In this document: in pieces, positions 10,681-30,144 of the stretch
How positions within the stretch are numbered: the first letter of the stretch is position 1
Layout of the letters: every line of letters begins with the position of its first letter
DNA from: an uncultured Spartobacteria bacterium
GTDB taxonomy: Bacteria; Verrucomicrobiota; Verrucomicrobiia; Chthoniobacterales; UBA6821
Length of the DNA stretch: 41,723 nucleotides
Reading direction: 5' to 3'
NCBI GenBank assembly: GCA_903858595.1
Contig: CAIOJL010000030.1
Span: 1 to 41,723, forward strand
Translations under genes and position numbers: made by a program
Notes under the pieces: model-generated
The model's input: only the letters and a program-made list of their open reading frames with translations
What the model was told of the DNA's origin: nothing
Database searches by the model: none

Positions 10681-11985
10681 CTATTTCCTGATGGGTGGGT
10701 TGAGCTTGATCCCCTTGCGAAGAAAGGTGGGAACGTCGAGATCTTCACCCTCCACGATGGTCGGCTCGCTCTTGTCAAAGCGGCCCCGCTGGTAGGTGTC
10801 CAGGGCAAGCGTTCCCTGCATCTGCTTGGAAGTGGCAGCGACCTTCTTTCCTGACTTGGAAGCAGGCTTTGTCTGAACCGGGAAGAGCTCGTCAGCGCCC
10901 TTTCCCCCTTCGCTGTGTCCTGAGGGCATCTCCTCCTCACCAGTTGGTTGGGGCAATTTTGTCCCAATTGTCGCCATAGTCCCAATCCGACTGATTGGAT
11001 TATTCGCACTATCCGCACCACTTGGTTCGCCGGTTTGGTTGCTTTCACTGTTTTTGAGAGGCTTCTTGATGGTCCCTCCGGAAGAGGCCAGGAGGTAGAG
11101 CTCCAAGGCCGATCCTATGGGCCCATCCGCGCGGACTCCTACTTTTATTTGACAGCTATCACTGGCAATTTGTTCAATTTTACCGACAACAGCCTGAACC
11201 TCCGCAAAGGAAATATCCTTAGCCCCGCGGAGCAGGAGAAGAATCATCGACGACTCCTTGAGGGCCGATCCCTTGCCGGGCAGGGTCAGGAGAGGGCTCT
11301 TCAGGGCTCTTTCCAGCGACTCGTGGAGACGGTTGGATCCCTCGGCCTTCCCGAATCCGAAATGGGTGAGTGTCCCCGGTTTTCCCAGCACATTGTGAAT
11401 GTCAGCACGGGTGATCTTCACGGGTCCCGAAGTGGAGAGCATTCCGGTGAGCGCCAGAAGGGCGGCTAAAAGGGTCCGATCGGAAAGAGCGAAGGCCTCA
11501 CCCACTGCGGCTATCGATGGAGATCCGCTGGAGAGTTGATCATTTCCAATCACGACAACGGCATCACAGATCTCTTCCAGTTTCTCCAAGGCCCGCACGG
11601 CAAGGTCCTTCTTGTGCTTTCCCTCGAAGGAGAAGGGCATGCCGACACAGGCCATCGTGGTCAATCCAGCCGACTTGGCACGAATGGCCAAGGCCGAAAG
11701 AAGGAATGAACCTGTCTCCCCCCCGAGACCACCGCAAAGAATGACAACGGAAGCCCCCTCAACGATTCGGCCGAACTCCTCGTCAATCATGCGGAAACCC
11801 TCCCCCGGATCTCCCTCGGGCACCTCGATTTTGTCACGGACAATGGAGGCGTTAAGCGAATCGGGATCATTGTTGACGGCCAGAAGTCCGGTCATGCCCG
11901 GATACTCGACGGAAAGCAGGTCGAGCACGGTGACTCCGGCATTGCCAACACCGACCAGGATGCGACGGGATGGTGAGATGCTCAT
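10681..11985 (-). CDS. ftsZ: Cell division protein FtsZ (divergent)
   Basis: FtsZ/tubulin-like GTPase: MPFSFEGKHKKDLAVRALEKLEEICDAVVVIGNDQL; C-terminal peptide DLDVPTFLRKG; located directly after ftsQ-ftsA. Nucleotide-binding loops diverge. Confidence 0.9.
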   Translation of the reverse strand: MSISPSRRILVGVGNAGVTVLDLLSVEYPGMTGLLAVNNDPDSLNASIVRDKIEVPEGDPGEGFRMIDEEFGRIVEGASVVILCGGLGGETGSFLLSALAIRAKSAGLTTMACVGMPFSFEGKHKKDLAVRALEKLEEICDAVVVIGNDQLSSGSPSIAAVGEAFALSDRTLLAALLALTGMLSTSGPVKITRADIHNVLGKPGTLTHFGFGKAEGSNRLHESLERALKSPLLTLPGKGSALKESSMILLLLRGAKDISFAEVQAVVGKIEQIASDSCQIKVGVRADGPIGSALELYLLASSGGTIKKPLKNSESNQTGEPSGADSANNPISRIGTMATIGTKLPQPTGEEEMPSGHSEGGKGADELFPVQTKPASKSGKKVAATSKQMQGTLALDTYQRGRFDKSEPTIVEGEDLDVPTFLRKGIKLNPPIRK

Positions 11986-13205
11986 GGGGAACGTTTCTTG
12001 AAGAGGTTGCCAAGTCCTTGAGTGAGCCGATCGATCATGCTCTCAGGCGCGATGTTCTTGGTCACGAGCCTCGCGTATTTGGTCAGTCCGATTGCGGTAG
12101 AGTATTGCGGGTCCTCGAAGATCTGGGTGGCTCCACTGACATTACGGGCGCGTGTGAGCTCCACCGGAATGTCAAAGATCTCCTCGGCGACCTGGGCAAT
12201 TCCCTTCAGCTTGGAACAGCCCCCGGTGATCATGACTCCCCGGATAAGATCCAACATTCCCTCGCCGGAAGACTCGATGTCGCGACGGATCAGTTCGAAG
12301 ATTTCCTTCACACGGAGGTGAATGATCGTTTCGAGAGAAGTGCGGTCGACATCGCAACCGAGGAATCTGGGGTCGTTCTTCAGCGAGATAATCCCACCCT
12401 GGGAACCTGCCGCATCGGCTGCTGAACCTTCCTCGATCTTGAGAAGTTCAGCCCTAGCAATCGGAAGCCTCAGTCCCACGGAAATATCATTGGTGATGTG
12501 GTCACCTCCCAAGGCCAGCACGCCGCTATGGCGGATGGCGCCGTCGATATAGACCAGGTAATCGGTCGTTCCACCCCCGATATCGATCATAAGGGCCCCG
12601 TAGTTCTTCTGATCCTGGGAAAGAACAACTTGGGCGCTGGCAAGCGAACTGAGCACGACATCCTCGATGCCGATCTTCAGCGACTCGATACAGCGGAGCG
12701 TGTTGTGGATGCGCGTCTTGATTCCGTGAACAATGTGAAAATCTGCCTCCAGCAGCGCTCCTTCCGACTTGAGGGGATCGATGACGTTCTGATTCCCATC
12801 GACGTGATAGGCCTGAAGAATGGTGTGGAGAAAGGTATTCGGTGTGGGAATGGCAACCTCCTTCGCGTTCACCTCCACGGCCTCCAGATCCTCGGGTTCG
12901 ATCTGCCTCTCGCCGGGAAGGGCCAGAGAGCCGCGGTTATTGAAGCTCGCCAGATGAGATCCCGTGATCGCGACCCAGACGTTGCCGATTTCAACATTCG
13001 TCTTGTCTTCGGCATCGAGGATCGCCTCGCGGACGCACTCGGTGACGGTCTCCATATCGACGATCTCCCCCTTGCGCACGCCTCGTGACGGGGTCTCCCC
13101 CACCCCGAGAATGCTGATTTGATCATCGGCCCTGGCTTCAGCGACGATGACGCTGATCTTCGTCGTTCCGATCTCTAGTCCCACAAAGATTTGCTCGTTG
13201 GCCAT
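11982..13205 (-). CDS. ftsA: Cell division protein FtsA
   Basis: IFVGLEIGTTKISVIVAE, ALMIDIGGGTTDYLVY, GVMITGGCSKLKGI; C-terminal amphipathic GLGNLFKKRSP. Confidence 0.97.
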   Translation of the reverse strand: MANEQIFVGLEIGTTKISVIVAEARADDQISILGVGETPSRGVRKGEIVDMETVTECVREAILDAEDKTNVEIGNVWVAITGSHLASFNNRGSLALPGERQIEPEDLEAVEVNAKEVAIPTPNTFLHTILQAYHVDGNQNVIDPLKSEGALLEADFHIVHGIKTRIHNTLRCIESLKIGIEDVVLSSLASAQVVLSQDQKNYGALMIDIGGGTTDYLVYIDGAIRHSGVLALGGDHITNDISVGLRLPIARAELLKIEEGSAADAAGSQGGIISLKNDPRFLGCDVDRTSLETIIHLRVKEIFELIRRDIESSGEGMLDLIRGVMITGGCSKLKGIAQVAEEIFDIPVELTRARNVSGATQIFEDPQYSTAIGLTKYARLVTKNIAPESMIDRLTQGLGNLFKKRSP

Positions 13206-13229: not shown

Positions 13230-14204
13230 CTAGTTGTGCTTCGGAGCTTTTTTAGAGGAGGCGACGGGTGCTATTTTGTCAGACACCTGCTCGGGCGTAA
13301 GCACAAAAGTCACGGGCGTATTGCGGCTAACCATGAGATTTGCGGTCTGGATTCTGCGGCCTGTTTCCTGGCAATGGTCGAGCAACTTGCGAAGCCGCTC
13401 GAGTTGCGACGGTAGATCGGCCTCTCCAAGGGTCCCGAACGTGAATTTAGCATTCGAGGCATCGGTCACGATGGCGGCATAGGGCTTGGAAACATCGATC
13501 GATCTGATCTTGAAAGTCTCTTCGGGAAGTTCGGAAAGCGCCTGCCTCAGCAGCAGGGCCGTAGAGATTGACGGATTCTCTAGTTTCTTACCTGGGACCG
13601 CGTTGCCCAGAGAAACGCCTCGAACTAAGGGAAGACCCAGAAATTTGTCATCGAGTCTGGCGGGACGCATCATCACGCCCTCCTTGTCGCAGAAGAAACT
13701 CTTACCGGGGCTGAACGATTCACCGGCGGATGCTTCAGTCTCTCCCGGTGCCACAAACAGAAAAACGGGCGCCCGCGGCTCCAGCCCCACCTCGATAGTG
13801 TCGGGCAATGTCTTTTCGATACTCACGGAGCGGACCTCGGGAAGGGCGGCCAGTTTCTGGTTCGCCTGCTCAAGGTCGAGGCCGAAGATATTCTTTCCCT
13901 CGGTGAAGCCCGTCAGGTTCACCAACTCCTCCTGGGTCAGAACCCCGTTGAGGTGGGTGACGAGGTGCTTAAGATTATACTCGGGGTTCTTGAAAAAGAA
14001 TTTCCCGCAAGCGATCCGCGCTCCGGCGGCCAGCAAGCCGACCACGACAACGATGGAGAATGCTTTCCAAAGGAAACCGCTCGCCTTGCCGCGATGCTGA
14101 CGTTTCATGCTAGCCGTTCGCACATTCACCTCGAGGAGGTGCTGACGGCGTGCGGGGCCGACTCCTTTACGTCTATTTCCTCCGGTATTGCGTCGTGTGT
14201 TCAT
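13230..14204 (-). CDS. ftsQ: Cell division protein FtsQ (POTRA domain)
   Basis: Single TM, POTRA-like region (NLTGFTEGKNIFGLDLEQANQKLAALPEVRSVSIEKTLPDTIEVGLEPRAP); between ddl and ftsA. Start at 14204 gives an ATGA overlap with ddl. Confidence 0.88.
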   Translation of the reverse strand: MNTRRNTGGNRRKGVGPARRQHLLEVNVRTASMKRQHRGKASGFLWKAFSIVVVVGLLAAGARIACGKFFFKNPEYNLKHLVTHLNGVLTQEELVNLTGFTEGKNIFGLDLEQANQKLAALPEVRSVSIEKTLPDTIEVGLEPRAPVFLFVAPGETEASAGESFSPGKSFFCDKEGVMMRPARLDDKFLGLPLVRGVSLGNAVPGKKLENPSISTALLLRQALSELPEETFKIRSIDVSKPYAAIVTDASNAKFTFGTLGEADLPSQLERLRKLLDHCQETGRRIQTANLMVSRNTPVTFVLTPEQVSDKIAPVASSKKAPKHN

Positions 14205-15130
14205 GCGCTGGCGGTTCGGGCCGTGAGTGATCGTTCCGCTATTCTGCAGCAAAGGGCTGTAAAATCGAGCCCCATGGCGGCTGCTGCTTTGGGAAGCAGA
14301 CTGGTTTCCGTCATTCCGGGGATGGTGTTGATTTCTAAAACGGTGGGGCCGGCGGAGGAGAGCAGGACGTCAACCCGGCTGTAGACGCTCAGCCCTAGAG
14401 CGCGCACCGCGGCGAGCGCCACTCCCTGCACGGCTTCTGTCTCCGAGGAAGAGAGGGGTGCTGGCACTAGATACTCCGTGGCTCCCTTGGTATACTTGTT
14501 GGTGTAGTCGTAAAATCCTTCGTTCGGCTTGATCTCAACCACAGGCAGCACCTGATCTCCGATCACACCCACGGTCAGTTCCCTTCCCGACACTAACTCC
14601 TCGACAAGGATCTCCTCACCGTAAAGGCGACAGTCCGCAAGGGCCTGGTCGATTCCAGCAGGCTCATGGATGAGATGAACTCCAACACTCGATCCCTGAC
14701 GTGGAGCCTTGATGACGATAGGCAGGAGCAGCGATGGCCGGACTCCTGTCTTAGAGCTCAGGATTTCGTAACAGGGAGTCGGCACACCGGCTTTCACCAA
14801 AGCCTGCTTGGTGAGGATCTTGTCAAAGGCCACACGACTCTGCGCCCCCCCCTCACCCGTATAAGCAATGCCGCGTTCGTCGAGCACTTGCTGGAGTCCT
14901 CCATCCTCGCCAAAGGTTCCATGGATCAGGTTGAAGACAAGTTCGGTCCCTTCCGGAATAACAACCTCCGTGCCAGCAAGCTCGATCTCCTCGACATGCG
15001 CTCCGGCATTCCTGAGTGCAGCAGCAACGGAGGCTCCGGAGCGAAGAGAAACCTCACGCTCGGAACCCGGTCCTCCCTTTAGAACAACAAGAAAACGGTT
15101 ACGAGGATTGAAGGAGAGTTCAGTGGCCAT
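14201..15130 (-). CDS. ddl: D-alanine--D-alanine ligase
   Basis: VVLKGGPGSEREVSLRSG, NLIHGTFGEDGGLQ, EEILVEELVSGRELTVGV, LEINTIPGMTETSLLPKAA. Confidence 0.95.
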   Translation of the reverse strand: MATELSFNPRNRFLVVLKGGPGSEREVSLRSGASVAAALRNAGAHVEEIELAGTEVVIPEGTELVFNLIHGTFGEDGGLQQVLDERGIAYTGEGGAQSRVAFDKILTKQALVKAGVPTPCYEILSSKTGVRPSLLLPIVIKAPRQGSSVGVHLIHEPAGIDQALADCRLYGEEILVEELVSGRELTVGVIGDQVLPVVEIKPNEGFYDYTNKYTKGATEYLVPAPLSSSETEAVQGVALAAVRALGLSVYSRVDVLLSSAGPTVLEINTIPGMTETSLLPKAAAAMGLDFTALCCRIAERSLTARTASA

Positions 15131-17501
15131 GGGTATTTTCGTGATTTTCCGGTTCTTCACCGATGATAGAGACCTCCGTCTCCAGCTCAATCCCACGCTC
15201 CAGACGAGCCCGATCTTGGATTCGGCTGATCAGGGCAAGGATCTCGCCAGCCGTGGCGCCGCCGTTATTGACAATGAAATTTGCATGGACTTCGGAGACG
15301 CGGGCACCACCGATAGCGCTGTTCTTGAGTCCCAGTTCGTCGATCAGTTTACCAGCGGAGATCCCACCGGGATTTTTGAAGATGCAGCCGGCACTGGCCG
15401 CCACAGGCTGGGTTTCCTTACGGTGGCGAAGCGACTCGCCGAGGAGATCGTCGATCTTTTCGGTGCCAGCCAATTCTCCGGAGAGCGTGGCCGAGAGCGC
15501 GTAATGGTCATGCAGAACCGGGACATCGCGGTAGCGCACTTCGATCTCTTCCGGGGTACGGGAAACGATATTTCCATCACGATCGGCAAACCGGATCCTG
15601 ACGACCTGGTCGAATGTCTGAACCCCCATCGCGCCGGCATTCATGCGCAAAGCCCCGCCCAGGTTTCCCGGAATGCCGTCCATCCATTCAAACCCCGTAA
15701 GGCCGGCATTGCGGGCGACGGCAGCCAGTTGCTTCAGGCGGATCCCGACCCCGGCGACAACCTCATTCCGATCCACCGAGGCCTCGGCAAAGCAACCCTT
15801 AGACAAATGGGCGACCACGCCGGGAAACCCGCCGTCCCGGACAATCAAATTGGATCCGCGACCCATGACCATAAAGGGTATTCCCTCGTCGTGGCAGAGG
15901 CGGACCAGTTCCGCAAACCCTTCCTCACTCTCGGGCTCCACCCAAAAACGCGCTGGCCCGCCGACCCTCATCGATGTGTGACGGGAAAGCGGTTCGGACA
16001 TTTTGATGACACCCGGACCCATGGCCTTGCGGAGTTTTCCACGCAGGACCAATTCCCGGGCGATCAGCAGGCCTGCCTCATGGATATTTCCCGCGCCGAG
16101 GGTGATTACCAGATCTCCTTCTTTAAGAGAGGCCGCGGCAGCCCATCCCGCCTCCAGCACAGAAGCGGCGCGCATCATTCCCTGATGCCCTTCGACACGG
16201 GCTGCCTCCACCAAGCTCCCTGCGTCAACTCCCGGTATGGGGGATTCGCCGGCGGGATAGATAGGGGCGACAAAGACAAGGTCAGCATCTCCAAAGGACC
16301 TTCCGAATTCGGCTTTGAGGGAAGCTGTGCGGGAATAACGATGTGGCTGGAAGAGAACCACGAGACGGCCCTCTCCTCTAATTTCCCCTTCTTGCCCGGG
16401 GTTACGAAGGGCAACCCTGGCCGTCGCAAGCGTTGCCGTAATTTCGGTGGGATGATGGCCATAATCGTCAAAAACTCGGAATTCATGATCCTCATACTTG
16501 AGCTCAAACCGGCGCTTAGCTCCACGGAAGGCTTCCAACGAGGAGGCGATGACGGAAAAGGAAATTCCCAAGTCGGTCGCCAGCGCAATCACCAGGAGGG
16601 CATTCTGGGCATTATGCAACCCGGGAATCCCGAGATGGACACGCCCAAGCAATTCCCCACCATGGAATACCTCAAAGCGGATTGTGAGCCCCGACTGCTC
16701 GATCTTCCCTAGGCGATAATGGCAGAGGGAACCTGTCCCCACAGGAACAGCCCCAGGGTGCGTGGAACAGATACGCGTCGCCCCGGGATCGTCGGCCCAG
16801 AAATAGACCTTGCCGGAAGTCTGGCCGAGCAGTTTGGAAAAAACCGCATCGATCGCGGCGAGATCCCGGTAATGGTCGAGATGCTCGGGTTCGATGTTGA
16901 GCACCAGCGCATGACGCGGGTGGTAATGGACCAGCGTCCCATCGCTTTCGTCCCCCTCGGCCACCAGATGAGTCCCTTCGGAGTCCCAACAGGCATTCGT
17001 GCCGAGGATGGGGATCTCGGCCCCGACATAGTGGGAAGGCTTGAGCCCGCCCGCCCGCAGGACATGGGCGGCCATGGCGGAAGTCGTGGTTTTTCCGTGC
17101 ATCCCGCAAACCACCACGCCTTGCTTGCCGGTCATCACGGCGGCCAGAACTTCGGCCCGGCGTACCATCGGCTTCTTATGAGCCAGAGCAGCGTCAAAGG
17201 CCGGATTGCCGGCATGGATAGCGGAAGAAAAAATTACCAGTTCGGCATCACCGACCATGCGGGTGCCGTGGGGAGACTCAAAATCGAGCCCCTTGCGACA
17301 CAGACGTTCCACTTCCTGGGTGTCGACCTTGTCCGAACCGCTGACACGATGACCGAGGGCCAGAAGAAGCGCCGCAATGCCACTCATCCCGGAACCGGCT
17401 ACTCCGATGAGATGGATGCGACGTGATGCGGGGCCCAGAAGGAATGAAGCCAGTTCCGCATCCTCAAGCCGGACGCCAGCGCCTCTCCTCTCTGAAATCA
17501 T
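15120..17501 (-). CDS. murC-murB: Fused UDP-N-acetylmuramate--L-alanine ligase / UDP-N-acetylenolpyruvoylglucosamine reductase (MurC-MurB)
   Basis: N-terminal MurC (IHLIGVAGSGMSGIAALLLALGHRVSGSD, GKTTTSAM, FDDYGHHPTEI) fused in frame to MurB (HTSMRVGGPARFW, RGSNLIVRDGG, GIPGNLGGALRMNAGA, GCIFKNP). Confidence 0.96.
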   Translation of the reverse strand: MISERRGAGVRLEDAELASFLLGPASRRIHLIGVAGSGMSGIAALLLALGHRVSGSDKVDTQEVERLCRKGLDFESPHGTRMVGDAELVIFSSAIHAGNPAFDAALAHKKPMVRRAEVLAAVMTGKQGVVVCGMHGKTTTSAMAAHVLRAGGLKPSHYVGAEIPILGTNACWDSEGTHLVAEGDESDGTLVHYHPRHALVLNIEPEHLDHYRDLAAIDAVFSKLLGQTSGKVYFWADDPGATRICSTHPGAVPVGTGSLCHYRLGKIEQSGLTIRFEVFHGGELLGRVHLGIPGLHNAQNALLVIALATDLGISFSVIASSLEAFRGAKRRFELKYEDHEFRVFDDYGHHPTEITATLATARVALRNPGQEGEIRGEGRLVVLFQPHRYSRTASLKAEFGRSFGDADLVFVAPIYPAGESPIPGVDAGSLVEAARVEGHQGMMRAASVLEAGWAAAASLKEGDLVITLGAGNIHEAGLLIARELVLRGKLRKAMGPGVIKMSEPLSRHTSMRVGGPARFWVEPESEEGFAELVRLCHDEGIPFMVMGRGSNLIVRDGGFPGVVAHLSKGCFAEASVDRNEVVAGVGIRLKQLAAVARNAGLTGFEWMDGIPGNLGGALRMNAGAMGVQTFDQVVRIRFADRDGNIVSRTPEEIEVRYRDVPVLHDHYALSATLSGELAGTEKIDDLLGESLRHRKETQPVAASAGCIFKNPGGISAGKLIDELGLKNSAIGGARVSEVHANFIVNNGGATAGEILALISRIQDRARLERGIELETEVSIIGEEPENHENTHGH

Positions 17502-18631
17502 CGGGCAGCCTCCCGGGTTACGATCCCCTGCTCCATGACGTCGGCGACAAGTCCCGCGGCACCGCATGGCAGAACGGAGCCTGCTGCTGCAGCCATGCGC
17601 TCGCGGCGCCTCACGTCGGTGAGGAGATTCCGAACCAAGAGAGCGAAGGATTCCGGGTCAGCCGTCTTTTCCTCAATGAGCTCAGCGGCACCGGCATCCC
17701 GGAAGGCCTCCGCATTGCGATGCTGATGCAGATCCGCTGCAAAGGGGAAGGGAATCAGGAGTGACGGAAGTGAGAATTGCGAAATCTCGCTGAGGCTTGC
17801 CGCACCGGCACGCGACACCACAAGGTCGGCAGCGGAATAAGCTTGTTCCATCCGGTGATGGAAGGAAGCGACATGAGAGGCAATTCCCTCCCTTTGGTAA
17901 TTGATGGCAGCCAGGTTGTCATCGCGCTCACCGGTGAGATGAATGATTTGCAGGGGCTTGTTCTCTTCGTTGCGGAAATCCTTCAGAAAAGCTGCCGAGC
18001 GGAAGAGGAGCTGGTTGATTCCGGCTGCACCCTGGCTCCCACCCATCACCAGGAGTGTCGGTAGTTTCGGATCCAGACCGAATGCGGAACGCGCCTCCCC
18101 CTTGGGAAGCGAGGTCCCGAGATTACGGCGCACCGGAGTTCCTGTCACGATGCAGGAGCTCTTCGGAAAGGAGGGTTCACAGACCTTCAATCCCAGCAGA
18201 ACGCGGTCCGTCCAACGTGAGGCGAGACGGTTAGCCCGTCCGGCAATCGCATTGGACTCGTGCAGGTAGCAGGGAATGCCGGAGAGACGCGCCGCCAACA
18301 GCGGAGCTGCGGAGGTAAATCCCCCCATCCCAAGGACGCCGGCGGGCTGATAGCGCGAGTAGAGCTGCCTGCAGGTGCTGAAGCTCTCCCAACTCCGCTT
18401 TAGGAACCGTAGAAATGCCGGGGAGAGGATCGCGGGCATTCCGATGGAGGGAAGCTTCTCACACCGGAACTCGGCATGATCCCTCAGCGCCACAGCATCG
18501 ATCTCCTTCTCCGAGACAAGCAACAGAACCTCGTGGCCGCGTTCATGCAGGACCTCGGCGACCGCAAGGCCTGGAAAGAGATGGCCTCCGGTACCACCGC
18601 AGGCAATGACGAATTGTTTGGGGACCGCCAT
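17498..18631 (-). CDS. murG: UDP-GlcNAc:undecaprenyl-PP-MurNAc-pentapeptide GlcNAc transferase
   Basis: IACGGTGGHLFPGLAVAEVL, GMGGFTSAAPLLAARLSGIPCYLHESNAIAGRANR, VMGGSQGAAGIN. Confidence 0.97.
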   Translation of the reverse strand: MAVPKQFVIACGGTGGHLFPGLAVAEVLHERGHEVLLLVSEKEIDAVALRDHAEFRCEKLPSIGMPAILSPAFLRFLKRSWESFSTCRQLYSRYQPAGVLGMGGFTSAAPLLAARLSGIPCYLHESNAIAGRANRLASRWTDRVLLGLKVCEPSFPKSSCIVTGTPVRRNLGTSLPKGEARSAFGLDPKLPTLLVMGGSQGAAGINQLLFRSAAFLKDFRNEENKPLQIIHLTGERDDNLAAINYQREGIASHVASFHHRMEQAYSAADLVVSRAGAASLSEISQFSLPSLLIPFPFAADLHQHRNAEAFRDAGAAELIEEKTADPESFALLVRNLLTDVRRRERMAAAAGSVLPCGAAGLVADVMEQGIVTREAAR

Positions 18632-18640
18632 GCGTGATTC

Positions 18641-19786
18641 CTAGATTCTGGGAACGGATCGTCCCACGAGGACGACATGCCTTGCCGTAGCAGGAGCGAT
18701 CGGGGTGCCGGTGCGGTGAATGTTGACAAGGATTCCAATCATGAAGAGACAAACGGCCATGTTGCTTCCCCCGTAACTGATGAAGGGCAGGGGCATCCCT
18801 TTGTTGGGAAGCATCGAGGTCGTCATCCCGATATTGACCGCTGCCTGCAACGAGATCAACAGGAGGATTCCCATGGCGAGAAGTTTCCCAAAGCGATCCT
18901 TGGCATTGGCAGCTATAAGGCCGCCGCAGAGAACAATGAGAATGAATCCCAGGAGGACAAGCCAGGTGAAACGGAGTCCTAACTCCTCCCCGATCATCGG
19001 GAAGATGAAGTCGGTGTGGGCGTAGGGCAGGTAGAGCATCTTCTGACGTCCCTCCCCGAGCCCAAGCCCTTCGAATCCGCCGGAGCCGAATGCGATCAGG
19101 GCCTGCCATTGCTGGAGTCCTTTGCCCAACTTGTCGGCCTCGGGATGCATGAAGGTCATCATGCGGGCGGCGCGTTCCGGAATCAGCATGGCGATTCCAA
19201 GTAAACCCATAAGCCCCACTCCGCAAAGTCCGGCGATGATCACCCAATTGGCACCTCCCACCAGACAGATGGCGAGGGTCGTCGCTCCGATGAGGGCGGC
19301 CGTACCGAGATCCACCTCCTTGGCAATCAGGCCCATGATAATGGCCACGACGCCGATCGGAATCACGAACCCATTCAGCAGTTTCCGGGGATCCGCCTCT
19401 TTGCGGGAAAACCACCAGGCGACAAAGAAAACCGCGGCGATCTTGCCGAACTCGCTGGGCTGGAAGACAAGGACGTGCAGATTGAGCCAGCGATGTGACC
19501 CGTTGATCTTCATTCCCACATGGGGAACGAAGCAGAGAACGAGCAGGAGGACGGAGACCACGAACCAGATTTTCCAAGTGCGCTGCCAGAGATGATAATC
19601 GGTCATCGCTCCCACAACGCAGACCCCCACGCCGATGATCAGCCAGAAGATATCTTTTTTGACAAAGTAGTAGATATCACCGTGACTCTCCTGGGCATAA
19701 GCGCTCGTGCTGAAAAGCATCACAACCCCGAGGGCAAGCAGCCCGACCACGGAGATCAGGAGGAGATAGATGCTGCTGCGCTGCAC
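18641..19786 (-). CDS. ftsW: Lipid II polymerase/SEDS protein FtsW
   Basis: Polytopic SEDS protein: FQPSEFGKIAAVFFVAWW, DFIFPMIGEELG, GMPLPFISYGGSNM. Confidence 0.96.
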   Translation of the reverse strand: MQRSSIYLLLISVVGLLALGVVMLFSTSAYAQESHGDIYYFVKKDIFWLIIGVGVCVVGAMTDYHLWQRTWKIWFVVSVLLLVLCFVPHVGMKINGSHRWLNLHVLVFQPSEFGKIAAVFFVAWWFSRKEADPRKLLNGFVIPIGVVAIIMGLIAKEVDLGTAALIGATTLAICLVGGANWVIIAGLCGVGLMGLLGIAMLIPERAARMMTFMHPEADKLGKGLQQWQALIAFGSGGFEGLGLGEGRQKMLYLPYAHTDFIFPMIGEELGLRFTWLVLLGFILIVLCGGLIAANAKDRFGKLLAMGILLLISLQAAVNIGMTTSMLPNKGMPLPFISYGGSNMAVCLFMIGILVNIHRTGTPIAPATARHVVLVGRSVPRI

Positions 19787-19840
19787 GGCTCCTGGATTCT
19801 GAAGGACTCTGGGACGATTGCGAGAGGGTTTTAGAGACAG

Positions 19841-20953
19841 TTACTGGGCCGCTTTCTTCGATGACGTAGGGGCAGAGGAGGCGGGAATCTTCAATTTCTG
19901 GCCGATCTGGATCTTCTTCGGATCGGTGATACCATTCGCTTTCATGAGCTGATCGGGCGTGATTTTGAATTTTTTGGCGATCTTGTAGGGGCTGTCACTC
20001 TTGATGACAATGTACTCGGTGGTCGGCTCCTGATTCTCAACAGATACCGCGACCGCAGTAGCACCCGCGGCGGGAGTTGCTATCGTAAGTGCCGCAGTCG
20101 CCGAAGTGACAGCGCCGGCTACTGCAACTCGCGCCTGCTGCACGCTTTCCACAACCTTGCCGGCCTGGGTCGAGACATCAGAAGCTGCCTGACTCATCAC
20201 TTTGGCCGGAATCTTGAGGATCTGTCCGACCTGAAGTACCGACTTTTCCGTCATTCCGTTCACCTTTTCGAGTTCGGGAATCGCCACTCCCAGTGAGGAA
20301 GCAATGCGGGTGAGAGTGTCTCCCGCCTTAACCATGTAGGTGTTCGCTGTTGCGGGAATTCCGGAATGCCCTGCCGCGTGGGATGCCTGAGGGGATTGAG
20401 ATGCCTGGGAAGTTGTAGTCGCGGGTTCCTGGGCAGATGACGTTGACACAGCAGCGTCACCGAGACCCGAGGCACCGAGGGTTTTCCCAATCATGCTCCT
20501 GGCACTTGCCAGGAATCCCCTCGGAGCCGTGGATGCAGTGGAGGTCTGCTTCGTTTGCTGGGCTGAGCTTTCTGTAGCGGCTTTTGCTGACTTAGGAGCC
20601 TCGCTCACTTTGGCGACAAGGGGAGCCTTGGAAGGTGCCGGAGGCTCTTCGCCTGGACCAGAACCAGAACCACTGGCATTACCGGGACCTTGGCCGTTCG
20701 ATGGCTGCTTTTGAGAGGCCACAGGCTCGGTGGAGCGAGCCGTCTTGGCGGAAGAGGCCTTGCCGACCTTTAAGGAATTAAAGGCATAAAGTCCACTCAC
20801 AGCCACCACATGAAGAAGAAGAACCACCAGAAAAGCATGGGAGAGCTTCATGTTCGGTTCGGGACCATAGTCTTCATACTCCTCTTCAGGAGCGTTCATG
20901 GTTGCCGCGCGAGCGCGGAGCCGACGGGTACGTTTAGGATTCATCGGATTCAT
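19841..20953 (-). CDS. Type II membrane protein with two C-terminal LysM domains
   Basis: TM LSHAFLVVLLLHVVAVSGLYAF; LysM1 YMVKAGDTLTRIASSLGVAIPELEKVNGM...LQVGQILKIP; LysM2 YIVIKSDSPYKIAKKFKITPDQLMKANGI...IQIGQKLKIP; long Ser/Ala/Thr/Pro linker. Confidence 0.9.
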   Translation of the reverse strand: MNPMNPKRTRRLRARAATMNAPEEEYEDYGPEPNMKLSHAFLVVLLLHVVAVSGLYAFNSLKVGKASSAKTARSTEPVASQKQPSNGQGPGNASGSGSGPGEEPPAPSKAPLVAKVSEAPKSAKAATESSAQQTKQTSTASTAPRGFLASARSMIGKTLGASGLGDAAVSTSSAQEPATTTSQASQSPQASHAAGHSGIPATANTYMVKAGDTLTRIASSLGVAIPELEKVNGMTEKSVLQVGQILKIPAKVMSQAASDVSTQAGKVVESVQQARVAVAGAVTSATAALTIATPAAGATAVAVSVENQEPTTEYIVIKSDSPYKIAKKFKITPDQLMKANGITDPKKIQIGQKLKIPASSAPTSSKKAAQ

Positions 20954-21019
20954 GGGTCGGATTATCTTATTGGATTTACTAGGTATTGTGGTTGTTGAAG
21001 AGCTAAAAGTTTATTTTTT

Positions 21020-22405
21020 CTAGGGGTTGTGTATGGCTACTTGAGCGAGGGGAATCTCTGTGCCCATGGATTCCTTCACAAGCCGTCTGAATGTCTCCCC
21101 GCGCTCCACATAATCGCAGAACATGTCGAAAGAGGAGGTGCCGGGTGAGAAGAGAATGGTCGTTCCGGATTTGGCTTCCTTTCGGGCGATCAGTACCGCC
21201 TCCTGTAGACTCTCTGCCTCGAGGCAATGAAGAGGCGCCCAATCCCTTGCAATCCGATGACGCATTTCACCAATAAGAATCGCCAGACTAACATGTTCTC
21301 GGACAAAGTTTGCGATGGGTGAGAATTCAAAACCCTTGTCCTTTCCACCGGCGATCAGGATGAGCGGTCCTTGGACGGAGCGAATCGCCTGCTCCATGGC
21401 GTCGAGGGTTGTCGCTTTGGAGTCGTTGATCCAACTTAGGCCTTCACGCTCCGCGATGAATTCACAGCGGTGAGCGGGCGGCGTGTACTCCCGGATCGCA
21501 TCTGCCATCATTCTTGTATCGGCACCAAGCACTATGCAGGCACCAAAGGCGGCCATGACATTGGCCGCATTGTGGGGACCTCGGAGCCGGGTCGTGGACA
21601 GATCGAGTAGCACTTTTCCTCCATACTGGATCCTAAGATTGTCCTTGAGAGAAAGATCTGCTGATGGATCTGTGGTACTGAAAGTGATCCCCTTTGCCTT
21701 GATCTTGGAAAGATCCAGTTCCTTTGTATCCGCAGGAATCACCGCCCAGTCGTCAGCGGTCTGATTCTCAAAGATTCTGAGTTTCGCTGCGCGGTACTCG
21801 TGCATCGAGGGATAGCGGTCGAGATGGTTGGGACTCAGATTGAGCCATACCGAAACCTTGGGATGGAATGTCCTGATGGTCTCAAGCTGGAACGAACTGA
21901 CCTCCACAAGCAGCACATCCCAAGTCACTTCTCCCTCCAGAAGTTCTGACATGGGGGTTCCGATATTCCCGCATGAGGCAGCCCTAAGTCCCGCCCCCCG
22001 GAGCATGAGGGTGGTGAGTTCCGTCGTGGTGGTTTTCCCATTGGTGCCTGTGATCGCCACCACCGGAAAGGGACAGAGAGTGAATGCCAGCTCGAGCTCG
22101 CCGATCAGGGGAATGCCCTTCCTTAGCACATTCACGACGATGGGTGCCGTCTCCTCGATTCCTGGACTCAAGACCGCGATGTCATGAACGACATTATCCC
22201 TCGCGGCATCCGCTCCCGTGAAAACGCTGATCCCTTCCTTCCGCAAGAGTTCTGCCCGCTCCATCAGAATAGGTGATTCCCCACTGTCACAGGCAGTCAC
22301 CTCGGCACCGGAGCACTTGAGTAGACGTGCGGCGGCGAGACCGCTTCTCCCCAATCCGAGGACGACAGCTTTTTTGCCCGCGTAAGGATTGGATGAGGCA
22401 TTCAT
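21020..22405 (-). CDS. murD: UDP-N-acetylmuramoylalanine--D-glutamate ligase
   Basis: AVVLGLGRSGLAAARLLKCSGAEVTACDSGE, AITGTNGKTTTTELT, INDSKATTLDAMEQAI. Confidence 0.96.
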   Translation of the reverse strand: MNASSNPYAGKKAVVLGLGRSGLAAARLLKCSGAEVTACDSGESPILMERAELLRKEGISVFTGADAARDNVVHDIAVLSPGIEETAPIVVNVLRKGIPLIGELELAFTLCPFPVVAITGTNGKTTTTELTTLMLRGAGLRAASCGNIGTPMSELLEGEVTWDVLLVEVSSFQLETIRTFHPKVSVWLNLSPNHLDRYPSMHEYRAAKLRIFENQTADDWAVIPADTKELDLSKIKAKGITFSTTDPSADLSLKDNLRIQYGGKVLLDLSTTRLRGPHNAANVMAAFGACIVLGADTRMMADAIREYTPPAHRCEFIAEREGLSWINDSKATTLDAMEQAIRSVQGPLILIAGGKDKGFEFSPIANFVREHVSLAILIGEMRHRIARDWAPLHCLEAESLQEAVLIARKEAKSGTTILFSPGTSSFDMFCDYVERGETFRRLVKESMGTEIPLAQVAIHNP

Positions 22406-22414
22406 CGGCACCGG

Positions 22415-23533
22415 TCAGCGCAGTTTCAGTGTGGCGATTCCAAGAAGCCCGAACACAATAGCCATTATCCAGAACCGAACGGTGACTGTGTTTTCCTTCC
22501 ATCCAGAAAGTTCGAAATGGTGGTGTAGCGGAGACATCTTGAAGATGCGTTTTCCAGTCAGCTTGAAGCTTGCGACTTGAAGGATGACCGAGAGCGCCTC
22601 GGCGACAAAAACTCCTCCGACAATCGCAAGCATCAGTTCCTGCTTGCAGCAGATCGCGAGCACACCAAGCAGACCTCCGATCGCCAGGGACCCCGTGTCA
22701 CCCATGAAGACTTTGGCCGGATGGCAGTTCCACCAGAGGAAACCGAGCGCCGCGCCGGCCAAGGCAAGACTCACGACAGCCAGTTCGCCGGAAAACCCAT
22801 AATACGGAATCTGAAGGTAGAAGGCCGCCTTGCTGTTTCCGGCCAGATAGGTGAAGACACCGAAGCAGATCCCGGCCATGACCGTGCATCCCGAGGCCAG
22901 TCCGTCAAGTCCATCGGTGAGATTCACCGCATTCGAGGATCCGACGATGATCAGCAAATAGAAAATATAGGTCCAGAAGATGCCGAGGCTTAAAACAGGG
23001 CCCTTCATGAACGGGATGTAGAGTTGCTGAGCCTGATTGGCCAGTGAGGGAGAGAGAAGAAAGAATGCCGTGATTCCGCCCGCGAGAACGCATTGAAGAA
23101 CAAACTTGAGACGACTGCTGATGCCTGCCGAACTTTTTTTCGTCACCTTCAGCCAATCGTCATAAAATCCAAGCGCTCCGAGAAAGATGACCGTGATGAG
23201 ACAGATCCAGACAAAAGGATTGTCAGGACGCGCCCAGATCAGAGTGGAAAGAACCACGGCCGCAATGAGCAGGATACCCCCCATGGTTGGGGTTCCCTTC
23301 TTTCCGCCATGAAGTTCATTGAGTCGGTTGACTTCATCGGAGCTTCGGATCGGTTGGCCCAGCTTCAGCTCAACCAGGCGGCGAATGACCGTGTTGCCGA
23401 ACATCAGGCAGATCAGGAAGGAAGTGAGTCCGGCGCAGAGAGCACGGAAGGAGATGTATTGAAAAACATTCAGGACTTTCCCGATATGCACCCCGTGCAG
23501 GAGAGTTCCGAATTGTGATAGGTAATAAAGCAT
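22415..23533 (-). CDS. mraY: Phospho-N-acetylmuramoyl-pentapeptide transferase
   Basis: HGGKKGTPTMGGILLIAAV, NLTDGLDGLASG, KVFMGDTGSLAIGGLLG, MSPLHHHFELSGW. Confidence 0.97.
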   Translation of the reverse strand: MLYYLSQFGTLLHGVHIGKVLNVFQYISFRALCAGLTSFLICLMFGNTVIRRLVELKLGQPIRSSDEVNRLNELHGGKKGTPTMGGILLIAAVVLSTLIWARPDNPFVWICLITVIFLGALGFYDDWLKVTKKSSAGISSRLKFVLQCVLAGGITAFFLLSPSLANQAQQLYIPFMKGPVLSLGIFWTYIFYLLIIVGSSNAVNLTDGLDGLASGCTVMAGICFGVFTYLAGNSKAAFYLQIPYYGFSGELAVVSLALAGAALGFLWWNCHPAKVFMGDTGSLAIGGLLGVLAICCKQELMLAIVGGVFVAEALSVILQVASFKLTGKRIFKMSPLHHHFELSGWKENTVTVRFWIMAIVFGLLGIATLKLR

Positions 23534-23552
23534 CGTGTGACGGGTTGGATGT

Positions 23553-24914
23553 TCAGTTGAAATGTTGAAGGACTTCCTCCATGTGTGCGCTCCTGCTGGC
23601 TTTTAGCAGGACCAGGTCGCCCTGAGTGGCAAATGAGGAGAGAAGCTTGGCGGCCGCGGCATTGTCCGAAACGACGCGCACATCCGAAAGCCCTGCCTTC
23701 GAAGCCGCATCAGCGATTGCGGAGGCTTCTTCACCTATAGTGATCAGCGTGGAGAGTACGGCAGCGGCCTTGGTACCCACGCTTTGGTATCCCGTAGCCG
23801 CATGAATTCCCAATTCCCCCATCCTGCCAAGAACAGCAATCTTGCGACCCTGCATGGAAAGTCCCTCAAGCGTCTCAAGAGCAGCTATCATCGATTCGGG
23901 ATTCGCATTATAGGTGTCGTCCACAAACGTCACCCCACCCCTGATCACCTTGGCCAGTCGTCCTGAATTCAAGGTGACACCAGCAAGTCCCGAAACGCAC
24001 TTCTCCAGCGTGATGCCACACTGCAATCCCGCCGCAATTGCCAGAAGGGCATTGCCGACCATATGCCGACCCGGAACTGGGAGAACGCCTTCGGCTCTCC
24101 CGAACTCTCCCTCGATCACAAAACGTGTCTCATCCAGGCCGTATCGAATTCGCGCGGCCCTGAGGTCTCCCCGATCGAACCCAACCTGCAAGACCGGGGC
24201 GGATGTTCTAGAGGCGAGCTCCTTCGCAAAATCGTCCTCAGCCGGGATGATCGCATACCCCCCGGACGGCAGCTTCTCCAGAAGATCTCCCTTTTCCGCC
24301 GCGATTTCTTCACGACTCCCGAGATGCTCGATGTGGGCGGTTCCTACATTTGTGATGATGCCGATCTCCGGCCTGGCCAATCCGGCAAGTGGCGCGATCT
24401 CACGGCGGTGATTCATTCCGATCTCCCAGACAGCAGCTTCATCGTCCAGATCGGCCGCCAGGATGGAGAGAGGAAGACCGATCTCGTTGTTCAGATTACC
24501 CAGAGTTGCTGTTGTGCGTAATGATGAGCGAAGCACGGCCGCCGTAAAATCCTTCACGGAGGTCTTACCGCTACTGCCGGTGATGGCAATGGCACGCAGT
24601 GTGAGTCTGGAGCGCCAGGCTGAGGCAAGGAGTGCGAGTCCTGTCAGGGAATCCGGCGTGCTCAGAATACCAAACCCCTGAGGCAAACCAACCGGAGGTT
24701 CACCGTCGCAGAGAGCCGCAACGGCTCCTTTTGCAGCGGCTTCAGCGATGAATTGATTCCCGTCGAAACGTTCCCCCCTGAGCGCGACATAGAGATCACC
24801 TGCCTCGATCGACCGCGTATCCTTGGCGACACGGCGCACAATGCCTTCGGGATTGCCGGCAATAAGAGCTGCGCCGCACATTCCGGCTATCTCGGAAAGG
24901 GAAAGCGGATTCAT
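23553..24914 (-). CDS. murF: UDP-MurNAc-tripeptide--D-Ala-D-Ala ligase
   Basis: DTRSIEAGDLYVALRGERFDGNQF, AITGSSGKTSVKDFTAAVL, DDTYNANPESMIAALETL. Confidence 0.95.
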   Translation of the reverse strand: MNPLSLSEIAGMCGAALIAGNPEGIVRRVAKDTRSIEAGDLYVALRGERFDGNQFIAEAAAKGAVAALCDGEPPVGLPQGFGILSTPDSLTGLALLASAWRSRLTLRAIAITGSSGKTSVKDFTAAVLRSSLRTTATLGNLNNEIGLPLSILAADLDDEAAVWEIGMNHRREIAPLAGLARPEIGIITNVGTAHIEHLGSREEIAAEKGDLLEKLPSGGYAIIPAEDDFAKELASRTSAPVLQVGFDRGDLRAARIRYGLDETRFVIEGEFGRAEGVLPVPGRHMVGNALLAIAAGLQCGITLEKCVSGLAGVTLNSGRLAKVIRGGVTFVDDTYNANPESMIAALETLEGLSMQGRKIAVLGRMGELGIHAATGYQSVGTKAAAVLSTLITIGEEASAIADAASKAGLSDVRVVSDNAAAAKLLSSFATQGDLVLLKASRSAHMEEVLQHFN

Positions 24915-26434
24915 CGTCTCGCTTCCTCCCTTTCATCAAACTCCTTCCCAGCCATCGCGTGGGCAGTGACCCTGACATCGTCAAAAGGGTGACGGCCGGA
25001 CTCTGTTTCTTGGTAATCCTCGTGCCCCTTGCCCGCCACCAGCACGATATCCCCTGGCGCCGCGATCTCCACAGCACGCCTAATGGCGCTTTCACGGTCG
25101 ACATAGCTTTCGTGGCCCTGGGCACGGAAGCCTCCTGCTGCCTCGTTCATGATCTCCAGCGGATCCTCGCCGCGGGGGTTGTCGGAGGTCAGAATCACGC
25201 GATCCGAGTTCTGCTCGACGGCAGCCGCCATGAGAGGACGCTTGGCCCTGTCACGGTCACCGCCGCAACCGAAAACCGTGATGATGCTGGCGGGGTTCAG
25301 TTGCCGGAGTGTGCTGAGCACATTCACCAGCGCATCGGGCGTGTGGGCATAGTCGACAAAGGCCTGGAAATTCCGCTTTACGGGAACGCGCTCCAGGCGT
25401 CCCGGAACCTGGGGTATCGTCGCAACAGCGGCAATGGCACGGCGAAGTTCAAGTCCCATAGCCGAGGTAGCGGCCAATGCGGCGACGGTGTTGTACACAT
25501 TGAAGAGACCGATCAGCGGAGTCCGGACCAGATAGCTTCTTCCCTTGGCATCCAATCGGAAGATGGTGCCTGGCGCGGTATAAGCAATGTCACTGGCGCG
25601 GAAATGACAGCTGCTTCCCTGACCGTAGGTGATGATCGGGACTCCCTGAACGCGGTCGAGGAGACGATGCCCATAACGGTCATCAGAGTTGATGATCGCT
25701 CGACCCTTTTTCTTGGTCTGCTTTGCAAGTCCCGTGAAGAGTAGGCGTTTCGCCTCGAAGTACTCCTCCATGGATCCGTGGTAGTCGAGATGATCCTGGG
25801 TGAGATTGGTAAAGACGGCGGCATCGAACTCGACCCCTCCAATGCGATGCTGCATCAGCGCATGGCTGGAGACCTCAAGAGCTGCTGCCCGAAATCCCCC
25901 ATCCCTCATGATGGCCAGCATCCGCTGCAGATCGATCGACTCGGGCGTGGTCCTGGAAGCTGGCTCGACGATACCTGGAAGGACATACTCAATCGTCCCA
26001 ACAAGCCCGCAAGGACGGCCGACTGAATCGCAGAGATGCCTGATGATCCAGGCCGTGGTTGTCTTGCCATTCGTTCCGGTGACACCGGCCACGGCTAGCG
26101 ATGCCGAGGGATGTCCGTAGAAGACCGAAGACAGGGCGGCCATCGCCACACGAGCATCGGGAACCCTCACAACAGGAACCCCTGCTATCGAGGGAATCTC
26201 ATTTCGGGAAATGTCTTCAGCTGTCACGACCGCAATTGCTCCCTTTTCGATCGCCTCGCGAACAAAGTGGATTCCGTTTTCACTCGATCCCGGAATCGCA
26301 ATAAAGAGATCGCCGGCCCAGACAGATCGGGAATCGCAACTCAGGCCCAAGACCGTTACATCGGGACTCCCCATGACGGAGATTACCGGGGTGGATTGAA
26401 TGAGGGTTTCTAGATTCATGGCCGGGATATTCAT
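24911..26434 (-). CDS. murE: UDP-MurNAc-dipeptide--diaminopimelate ligase
   Basis: GVTGTNGKTTTAWIIRHL, FTNLTQDHLDYHGSMEEYFEAKRLLF, DYAHTPDALVNVL, TSDNPRGEDPLEIM (DNPR is typical of mDAP-type MurE). Confidence 0.96.
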   Translation of the reverse strand: MNIPAMNLETLIQSTPVISVMGSPDVTVLGLSCDSRSVWAGDLFIAIPGSSENGIHFVREAIEKGAIAVVTAEDISRNEIPSIAGVPVVRVPDARVAMAALSSVFYGHPSASLAVAGVTGTNGKTTTAWIIRHLCDSVGRPCGLVGTIEYVLPGIVEPASRTTPESIDLQRMLAIMRDGGFRAAALEVSSHALMQHRIGGVEFDAAVFTNLTQDHLDYHGSMEEYFEAKRLLFTGLAKQTKKKGRAIINSDDRYGHRLLDRVQGVPIITYGQGSSCHFRASDIAYTAPGTIFRLDAKGRSYLVRTPLIGLFNVYNTVAALAATSAMGLELRRAIAAVATIPQVPGRLERVPVKRNFQAFVDYAHTPDALVNVLSTLRQLNPASIITVFGCGGDRDRAKRPLMAAAVEQNSDRVILTSDNPRGEDPLEIMNEAAGGFRAQGHESYVDRESAIRRAVEIAAPGDIVLVAGKGHEDYQETESGRHPFDDVRVTAHAMAGKEFDEREEARR

Positions 26435-28170
26435 CGGGCACTGACGGCGGCGGTGCTGGAATCCTGTTTGGATACTGAGTCTGTAGGTTCGGGATCCATA
26501 TCGAGATGCCTAGCGGCTTTTTCTCCGATTTTTGCAAAGACTGGCCCAGCCACTGAACCGCCGTAGTTTGCTGTCTCGCCTAATTTCGCATCATCCACGA
26601 TAACGATACCCATGATTCTCGGTTTATTGACGGGAAAGAAGCCAGCAAACGAGACGATATAGCGCCCCTCCAGGTATCCCCCATGAGGACTGATTTTCTG
26701 CGCAGTGCCCGTCTTGCCGGCGACGCGGTACCCCTCGATTCGGGCCAACGGTGCCGTTCCTTGATTGCCGACAACCTTCTCCAGCGCATTGGCGATGTAG
26801 TTGGCGCTCTCTGTCTTGACCACCTGCGCGACAGGAGCCTCCGTCAACTCGGCGCTCCCCTCTCCCTTACTCATGACAAGTTTTGGCTTCAGAAGCTTGC
26901 CACCGTTCGCGATCGCCGACATTGCCATGACCATCTGTATCGGCGTCACACTGATTGATTGACCAAAGGCCACACGCGTCTTTGTCAGCATGTCCCAACG
27001 ATGAGGAGGAATCACTTGTCCCGGAATCTCTCCAGGAAGAGGGATGCCCGTACGTGTCCCGAATCCGAATTTCCTGACATAGTCATAGAACATCTGATCC
27101 TTCATCCGCAGGGAGATCTTGGCGGCACCGATATTGGAGGACTTCATCAGGATTTCCGGGATGCTCAGATCGCCGCTCCCGTGGTGGTCCTTGATGATTT
27201 TCCCTCCGTAGGAAAAGTGTCCGTTCTCACAAAAGATCTGTGTCTTGTCGTTGACAATCCCCTCATTGTAAGCGGCCGAGGTGACAACTATCTTGAAGAC
27301 GGATCCAGGCTCGTAGATGTCCGAGATAGCACGATTACGCATTTCCTCGGGCTTCGCCTGATTGAATTTGTTCGGGTCGTAGTTCGGTCTGCTGGCCATG
27401 GCCAGGATCTCGCCAGTATTGGGATCGGCCAGAATCGCCGTTGCCGAGGCGGGATGATTCGTCTTGTAGGCCGCATCAACCTCACGCTCCGCGATCGCCT
27501 GCAGACCCATGTCGATGGAGAGGCGGATATCTGATCCGTTCTCGGGAAGCTGCTCCTGCCCCCGGTAGACGACGATCTCCCTGCCCTTGCGGTCGTGCTC
27601 GATCCATCGGAATCCCTCTTGGCCGGTCAGGGCATCATCGCAGGTCTTTTCGATCCCATCGGCCCCGTGCCCTGTGTGATCAACATATCCCAACACATCG
27701 CAAAGCATCTCCCCGTTGGGATAACTCCTCACGGATCCCTCTTGAAGATAAAGGCCGTGAAGATTCGCCTTCTCAAGTGCCCTGATCATGTCCTGGGCCT
27801 TCTCTTCGGAGACCCCCTTGCGGATGACCAAGTACTTGCTCTTGGTCGTGAGTTTCTCCGTGAGTTCTTCGGGCGTCATTTCGAGAAATGGGGCTGCCAC
27901 TCCGGCGACCGCCGCCGGTTTCTGGATGTGCGAACCATCGGCATAGACCATCTGCACGGGAACGTTCACTGCAAGCTCCTCGCCGTTCCGGTCAAGAATG
28001 CGACCCCGCCGGGCTTGGATCACCTGTCTAGTATCATGCTTCTCCGCGGCTATTTCTTGATAATAGTCGTGCTTGAGGATCTGCAGGTGTATTAATCGCC
28101 AGGCGAAGGCGGTGAAGATGAGGACCAGCAGGGCGCAGACAACCCCGATGCGCTCGCCCGTACCCTTCAC
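26431..28170 (-). CDS. ftsI: Penicillin-binding protein, FtsI-like (PBP3)
   Basis: N-terminal TM, RRGRILDRNGEELAVN, YEPGSVFKIV, SSNIGAAKISL, KTGTAQK. Confidence 0.95.
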   Translation of the reverse strand: MKGTGERIGVVCALLVLIFTAFAWRLIHLQILKHDYYQEIAAEKHDTRQVIQARRGRILDRNGEELAVNVPVQMVYADGSHIQKPAAVAGVAAPFLEMTPEELTEKLTTKSKYLVIRKGVSEEKAQDMIRALEKANLHGLYLQEGSVRSYPNGEMLCDVLGYVDHTGHGADGIEKTCDDALTGQEGFRWIEHDRKGREIVVYRGQEQLPENGSDIRLSIDMGLQAIAEREVDAAYKTNHPASATAILADPNTGEILAMASRPNYDPNKFNQAKPEEMRNRAISDIYEPGSVFKIVVTSAAYNEGIVNDKTQIFCENGHFSYGGKIIKDHHGSGDLSIPEILMKSSNIGAAKISLRMKDQMFYDYVRKFGFGTRTGIPLPGEIPGQVIPPHRWDMLTKTRVAFGQSISVTPIQMVMAMSAIANGGKLLKPKLVMSKGEGSAELTEAPVAQVVKTESANYIANALEKVVGNQGTAPLARIEGYRVAGKTGTAQKISPHGGYLEGRYIVSFAGFFPVNKPRIMGIVIVDDAKLGETANYGGSVAGPVFAKIGEKAARHLDMDPEPTDSVSKQDSSTAAVSAR

Positions 28171-28571
28171 CTGTTGACGGCGCGCTGGGGACCCCCGGGA
28201 CCGAACCGGCTTTCCGGATCGCGCGAGGCCGTGCGCAGAACCCCATCAACTTCAGCCGAAGCGGGCGGCGTGACGCGGGCGATCGCCGTATCGCGGATCG
28301 CCTGAAGCGTTATATATCCATCATCCAGACGATGCTGCAGAGCCCCGCGTGAGGTCATGGAAGTGATCTGCGCCTTCAGGGCCTCGTCCCTGCCCTCCTC
28401 CTCCCGGAGGGCGGCCTCAACTAGGCGGGACTGATTGCCGACAGCATGCTGCTGGTTCTTGAGATAGACGAAGAAAAGCCCAGCAAGGCCTATCAGAAAA
28501 ACGATGACAAGCCATCTTGCGAGAAAATTCACCTCGATCGCATTTGTGGTGCGTCGGCGGTTCACGCTCAT
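28167..28571 (-). CDS. ftsL: FtsL-like bitopic protein
   Basis: 134 aa; single N-terminal TM (LARWLVIVFLIGLAGLFFVYL) then a coiled-coil-like region; located between rsmH and ftsI with ATGA overlaps. Confidence 0.55.
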   Translation of the reverse strand: MSVNRRRTTNAIEVNFLARWLVIVFLIGLAGLFFVYLKNQQHAVGNQSRLVEAALREEEGRDEALKAQITSMTSRGALQHRLDDGYITLQAIRDTAIARVTPPASAEVDGVLRTASRDPESRFGPGGPQRAVNR

Positions 28572-29518: not shown

Positions 29519-29633
29519 GAAATGGGAGGAAGAGGTGGAAGTAGAGAAGGTTGTCGTCGCAAGGTCGTGATGGGCCCTGAGAAATCTGTTGCGTCTAAGT
29601 TTGTGTTGGATGCGGGTCATCGGTTCATGCGGC

Positions 29634-30086: not shown

Positions 30087-30109
30087 GGGTTTTGCAGTGG
30101 GCAGAAAGA

Positions 30110-30144
30110 CCACTTTCCGCCACTACGCCCCACTTTTTCCCACT
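30110..30144 (-). promoter_or_regulatory. Putative MraZ-binding operator: four AGTGG boxes with exact 10-bp period
   Basis: Minus strand AGTGGGAAAA|AGTGGGGCGT|AGTGGCGGAA|AGTGG; CCACT on the + strand begins at 30110, 30120, 30130 and 30140, just upstream of mraZ. Confidence 0.85.

Follow-up and report, generated by a model that had tools for sequence, protein, structure and literature searches.

A family of Chthoniobacterales whose only FtsZ lacks the T3 loop and most catalytic residues of the GTPase

The window, by which we mean the whole 41,723-nucleotide stretch of DNA analyzed here, comes from a Chthoniobacterales MAG of 2.35 Mb (96% complete), the named relatives of which are MAGs labelled Chthoniobacterales and Spartobacteria. 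It carries a complete dcw cluster on its (-) strand, and downstream of all the listed genes of that cluster, with clpB next after it, lies an ftsZ-derived gene of 434 aa (10681-11985, (-)), recognized from its translation and from Pfam Tubulin and FtsZ_C matches. The gene shares a 4-base overlap with a canonical ftsA (11982-13205, (-)), which scored 334 bits against a TIGR01174 cut-off of 176 and was aligned to E. coli FtsA; ftsQ (13230-14252, (-); POTRA_1, 4.3e-12), whose start is uncertain, precedes it, so the position directly after ftsQ-ftsA reported in the initial annotation holds. The rest of the cluster (14201-30113, (-); translations, ORFs and Pfam) consists of ddl, a murC-murB fusion and murG, identified from translations, and ftsW, a LysM protein gene, murD, mraY, murF, murE, ftsI, mraW and mraZ, identified by Pfam scan. 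The murC-murB fusion is seen in the translation of 15120-17567 (-); in Verrucomicrobium spinosum a fusion of these two genes is reported to be essential (PMC12283558). Elsewhere in the window, positions 35475-41087 (+) encode a UvrA-like protein of 1870 aa, about twice the usual UvrA length, in which the ABC and UvrA interaction domains are duplicated.

The ftsZ-derived protein passed the Pfam cut-offs for Tubulin (52.2 bits; cut-off 33) and FtsZ_C (35.3 bits; cut-off 27), its only Pfam matches, although the Tubulin match was limited to the second half of the profile (93-186); Tubulin_2 (PF13809) was not matched. It scored 113.8 bits with the NCBIfam FtsZ equivalog TIGR00065, below the cut-off of 295.2. 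With canonical FtsZ (TIGR00065; E. coli, S. aureus, M. tuberculosis) it shares the two-domain fold, the dcw place behind ftsQ-ftsA, the PFxFEG and NDxL segments and the FtsA-binding C-terminal peptide, but unlike canonical FtsZ it has no T3, a broken tubulin signature and five of seven active-site residues changed, and lies far below the family cut-off. Descent, synteny, fold and tail all mark the gene as an orthologue of FtsZ, yet its sequence falls short of what defines FtsZ as a GTPase. Translation and alignment place the peptide EDLDVPTFLRKG, a canonical FtsA-docking motif, at aa 414-425 (10711-10746, (-)); its presence had been noted before, with a span that reached one codon too far out, to 10708. 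It belongs to a conserved C-terminal tail (aa 386-434; 10684-10830, (-)) defined by dN/dS and conservation in the family and containing RGRFDKSEPTIVEGEDLDVPTFLRKGIKL, which follows a disordered, fast-evolving linker (aa 306-385; 10831-11070, (-); pLDDT ~50, and dN/dS). The extended tail RGRFxKSEPTIVxGEDLDVPTFLR is shared with other FtsZ proteins of Chthoniobacterales and Verrucomicrobiota, that of V. spinosum included.

Crystal structures of S. aureus FtsZ filaments name seven active-site residues, D46, Q48, G72, R143, N208, D210 and D213, and show that T7 reaches the nucleotide pocket of the neighbouring subunit, where its two aspartates and the T3 glycine position the water that attacks the gamma-phosphate (PMC8936486; for the role of T3 at the gamma-phosphate, also PMC8456036). 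In S. aureus, D46A, R143Q, N208L, D210N and D213N each abolish assembly, and R143K permits assembly with lowered GTPase activity (PMC8936486). The window protein retains two of the seven, D45 and D212 in E. coli numbering; the five changes are Q47->D, loss of the T3 glycine, R142->K, N207->K and D209->T. The T3 deletion is the largest of all the changes: alignment and AlphaFold leave a remnant, PEGDPGEG (aa 56-63; 11797-11820, (-)), where the canonical GITKGLGAGANPEVG is about 12 residues longer, the spacing from the T2 Asp to the T4 Gly is 47 residues versus 59 in E. coli, and the model has only a short turn from S3 (51-54) to H3 (60-75).

Alignment and residue comparison located the other loops, all on the (-) strand. 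T1 reads GVGNAGVTV (aa 12-20; 11926-11952) where the canonical form is GVGGGGGNA. T2, NNDPD (aa 38-42; 11860-11874), retains D45 and carries Q47->D. T4 reads GLGGETGSF (aa 86-94; 11704-11730), the phosphate-loop glycine G107 being replaced by E90, and its GGETGSF does not match the tubulin signature [SAG]GGTG[SAT]G (PMC1845146). T5/H5, PFSFEGKHKKD (aa 117-127; 11605-11637), retains P134 and E138 and carries K125 for R142. In T7, KITRAD (aa 190-195; 11401-11418), N207 has become K190, D209 has become T192 and F210 an arginine, and D212 is retained as D195. On the guanine side, N165 (the guanine contact in T6, N148-D149; 11539-11544) and F182 (F165 in H7, beside the guanine pocket; 11491-11493) are retained, as is E138. 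The altered T1, T4 and T7 motifs had been read at these same positions in the initial annotation, where the T3 deletion, Q47->D and R142->K went unnoticed.

We compared these motifs across 146 sequences, including 57 from Chthoniobacterales (20 from the window's family and 37 from 12 other families). The spacing from the T2 Asp to the T4 Gly is 47-53 residues in all 20 readable family sequences and at least 56 in 123 of the 124 others. The family retains 1-3 of the seven active-site residues, compared with mostly 4-5 in the other families of the order; E. coli has all seven, and because several other verrucomicrobial lineages of the class have them too, the losses are most simply read as derived. 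The three motifs flagged initially are real but unequally special. D209, the first catalytic aspartate of T7, is missing from all 57 Chthoniobacterales sequences, the window protein and its vertical relatives alike, and across the order T1 often takes the GVGNAG form and the tubulin signature often ends in GS; N15 of T1 is found in 20 of 20 family sequences. The order-wide loss of D209 is one part of a wider divergence of FtsZ in Verrucomicrobiota, some of which has been published. Other Chthoniobacterales and Verrucomicrobiota FtsZ, by contrast, possess T3 and G107: the G107 position of T4 is acidic in 17 of 20 family sequences and Gly in 37 of 37 from the order's other families, and V. spinosum FtsZ is reported to have an intact signature, GGGTGSG (PMC1845146). 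Close relatives therefore share part of the altered residues, as had been raised as a possible objection, whereas the T3 deletion, the Gly->Glu change in T4 and the fixed basic T7 are special to the window's family. What sets this family apart is its loss of T3 together with an exchange of charge between the two sides of the subunit interface. In the literature searched we found no biochemical characterization of the Chthoniobacterales relatives that share part of these residues. PF00091 scores across 147 genomes of the order were 40-56 bits in the window's family and 78-160 bits in nearly all others, and the family forms a single clade with support of 100 within the order in the gene tree. 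This monophyly, together with the neighbouring ftsA, rules out horizontal acquisition or a paralogue.

The altered gene is the only member of the tubulin superfamily found in its genome, and the same holds for all 15 family genomes that are at least 90% complete. Absence of a second FtsZ, claimed earlier for the window, extends to its whole genome, in which the PF00091 profile had one match and Tubulin_2 none. TIGR00065 matched once in each of 20 of the 22 family genomes, including all 15 that are at least 90% complete, and never above its cut-off, which 13 of 14 control genomes passed. No Tubulin_2-type FtsZ-like gene (PF13809) was found in the 22 family genomes, and a 72-row profile built from the family's own relatives, searched at E up to 10, recovered no additional gene, its extra matches being contig-end fragments of the same ftsZ and one weak tail-like match. 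Taken together, the Pfam Tubulin, TIGR00065, Tubulin_2 and 72-row profile searches rule out a second canonical FtsZ elsewhere in the genome or family.

Several observations indicate that the gene still works. In comparisons with the four closest relatives, dN/dS was 0.07-0.14 across both core domains, 0.01-0.09 in the C-terminal tail and 0.36-0.64 in the linker, and T1 and T4 were nearly unchanged despite synonymous-site changes. Mean conservation of the tail was 0.76 within the family and 0.72 in the rest of the order; within the family, T7 (0.74) and T4 (0.86) exceeded the core mean of 0.69. Judged by this selection on its sequence, the ftsZ of the window's family is a working gene. Sequencing error, proposed at the outset as a way in which the finding might fail, is not the explanation, nor is a pseudogene, given the recurrence of the features in 20 genomes and a core dN/dS of ~0.1. 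AlphaFold2 predicted the two-domain FtsZ fold with confidence both for the window protein (pLDDT >90 in most core blocks) and for a sister-genus protein, so that the models of both genera are free of a nucleotide-free collapse of the fold. Foldseek top hits with the window model were all FtsZ (E 3.9e-29), led by the GTP-gamma-S complex of M. tuberculosis FtsZ (target-length TM 0.83). Because ftsZ is essential in Verrucomicrobium spinosum (PMC12283558), it is not a gene that the phylum treats as dispensable.

The presumptive partner, FtsA, shows no comparable change. Its ATP motifs in the window protein are intact (GLEIGTTK, DIGGGTTD, ITGG), the C-terminal amphipathic membrane helix is present, and ftsA adjoins ftsZ in relatives too. 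Family FtsA proteins score 330-360 bits and exceed the cut-off in 19 of 21 genomes, which rules out decay through loss of FtsA. Identity between the window and the order's other families is 49-58% for FtsA versus 29-39% for the FtsZ core. MreB was found in most family genomes but by itself has no explanatory weight as a replacement for FtsZ, because it is present across bacteria as well; one sister-genus genome (G016, 97% complete) is without a true MreB match, whereas nearly every other family genome has a match of ~500 bits.

We lean towards the view that the window protein is an FtsZ, tethered by FtsA, which no longer hydrolyses GTP in the canonical way and whose filament is held by a remodelled interface. 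The protein would still be the scaffold of division, with its C-terminal peptide and FtsA anchoring it to the membrane; the peptide, the gene order and the canonical FtsA are in place, and their binding is predicted from them. That docking by FtsA is kept and GTP binding or hydrolysis altered had been suggested in the initial annotation; sequence, FtsA, purifying selection and the want of a second FtsZ agree with this, and the biochemical consequence is still a matter of inference. By sequence the GTPase cycle looks dismantled: T3 is gone, T4 has an acidic residue in the phosphate loop, and T7, which normally brings two aspartates to the neighbour's pocket, is basic. Because T3 is gone, T4 is acidified and the first aspartate is lost, canonical hydrolysis is unlikely, and GTP would most likely not be hydrolysed by the known mechanism. 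Head-to-tail stacking of subunits could persist by a remodelled contact in which a basic T7 face (K190, R193, K281) opposes a pocket face made acidic by D/E42 and E90. The replacements are non-random: among the 20 family sequences, the pocket side has E/D for Q47 in 19 and for G107 in 17, and the T7 side has K/R for N207 in all 20, R/K for F210 in all 20 and K for V293 in 15. This pattern suggests that a salt-bridged contact replaces phosphate, metal and aspartates; because the sites were chosen post hoc and in a single lineage, its p = 0.008 is not counted as proof. Nucleotide might be absent, or retained unhydrolysed as a structural ligand, and turnover might speculatively come from another source, such as ATP-dependent dynamics of FtsA or simple concentration control.

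At the intradimer contact of alpha/beta-tubulin (the N-site), GTP stays unhydrolysed and faces a basic T7 (K254 of beta-tubulin). The likeness that we propose is that of a basic T7 facing a non-hydrolysing contact; unlike in the window FtsZ, at the N-site T3 and the glycines of the signature are present and GTP is bound tightly, and the basic positions of T7 lie elsewhere. By this analogy, GTP or GDP may be bound but unhydrolysed in the window protein, an alternative that is as plausible as the salt-bridge version. A bolder form of the proposal, that a free-living lineage divides with a GTP-independent FtsZ in which a salt bridge between basic T7 and acidified pocket replaces the interface nucleotide, so that the Z-ring assembles and turns over without nucleotide hydrolysis by FtsZ, we regard as tentative and on the unlikely side.

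Nucleotide binding and residual hydrolysis may persist in the window's genus, because D212, D45, N165, F182 and E138 are retained there. These retained residues and the strong purifying selection on the changed loops would also suit a compensated GTPase, in which D212 together with K190, R193, E90 and K125 would substitute for the lost residues and the protein would bind GTP, hydrolyse it slowly and treadmill normally. Pocket changes need not mean zero activity, because the E. coli pocket mutant ftsZ84 (G105S), with a GTPase of 0.47 versus 7 per min, supports division under permissive conditions (PMC4603965). However, the deleted T3 is the loop whose G72 holds the catalytic water (PMC8936486), D212 is itself His in three of four sequences of the family's sister genus, and an acidic phosphate-loop residue is hard to square with a triphosphate; we therefore consider compensation rather improbable. 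In E. coli, D212G FtsZ requires a suppressor for growth (PMC5405962).

A non-polymerizing FtsZ that acts as a monomeric or oligomeric linker on FtsA, with the filament formed by FtsA (or MreB), strikes us as less probable again. It would fit an FtsA that is canonical and better conserved than FtsZ across the order, and the occurrence in G001 of an FtsA fusion bearing an FtsZ-type peptide, which would make sense if the peptide on its own served as a tag for docking to FtsA. However, both domains keep a confident fold, and within the family T7 and T4 are conserved above the core mean, suggesting that the two longitudinal faces remain in use. The fusion itself, a second FtsA behind a cREC_REC receiver domain, occurs in two genomes of the window's genus: in G001 (C65; L213:2272-3957 (-)) it ends in PTEDLDIPTFLRRG at the usual place of the FtsA membrane helix, where its sequence suggests transfer of the FtsZ docking tag to an FtsA paralogue, and in G006 (C22; L214:1203-2273 (+)) the contig stops short of the tail. 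That the motif changes are functionally minor products of ordinary drift is very improbable: bacterial FtsZ is known to be at its most divergent in Verrucomicrobiota (PMC9871819), Methylacidiphilum ftsZ is known to have evolved fast (data not shown in the source; PMC2474590) and motif loss is widespread in the phylum, but the altered residues are conserved rather than variable within the family and catalytic in every FtsZ studied, and the family's loss exceeds that of the other families of the order.

Treadmilling, which model bacteria are held to need for division, is set by GTP hydrolysis on FtsZ (PMC8079713). Division in the window's family may proceed without FtsZ cycling on GTP in the usual way, and a sole FtsZ that is under selection and lacks the hydrolysis machinery makes it possible to test a long-standing question, whether the role of FtsZ is that of a GTP-driven motor or of a scaffold bound to FtsA. 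Among FtsZ-like proteins whose GTPase is altered or missing, the plant ARC3 domain is a tubulin-superfamily member with an unusual nucleotide site that is found near division or membranes. FtsZl1/Tubulin_2 is another (PMC2875224). Both work alongside a canonical FtsZ, unlike the altered protein of the window, which is alone. Our literature search, partial in its coverage, found no description of a sole FtsZ that lacks T3 or is GTPase-dead.

Judged from sequence, Verrucomicrobiota have repeatedly lost catalytic residues of FtsZ. Besides Chthoniobacterales, one family of the same class (f24; e.g., L110, L112, L120) retains D209 and has lost D212 in 11 of 11 sequences, and another family (f20; e.g., L154, L156, L157), closed single-contig genomes among them, has lost almost everything, including most of T4 and T7. 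The phylum thus presents a graded series of FtsZ sites from intact to wholly eroded. The same superphylum includes phyla that lost FtsZ altogether, and the series may reveal the path of a lineage toward FtsZ-free division. In another family of the phylum, one sequence (G330, L197:647-1789) has a shortened T3 region and a broken signature (CLGHRTGSEC); its T3 shortening is apparently independent of that in the window's family, and two PF00091 matches were tallied in the G330 genome.
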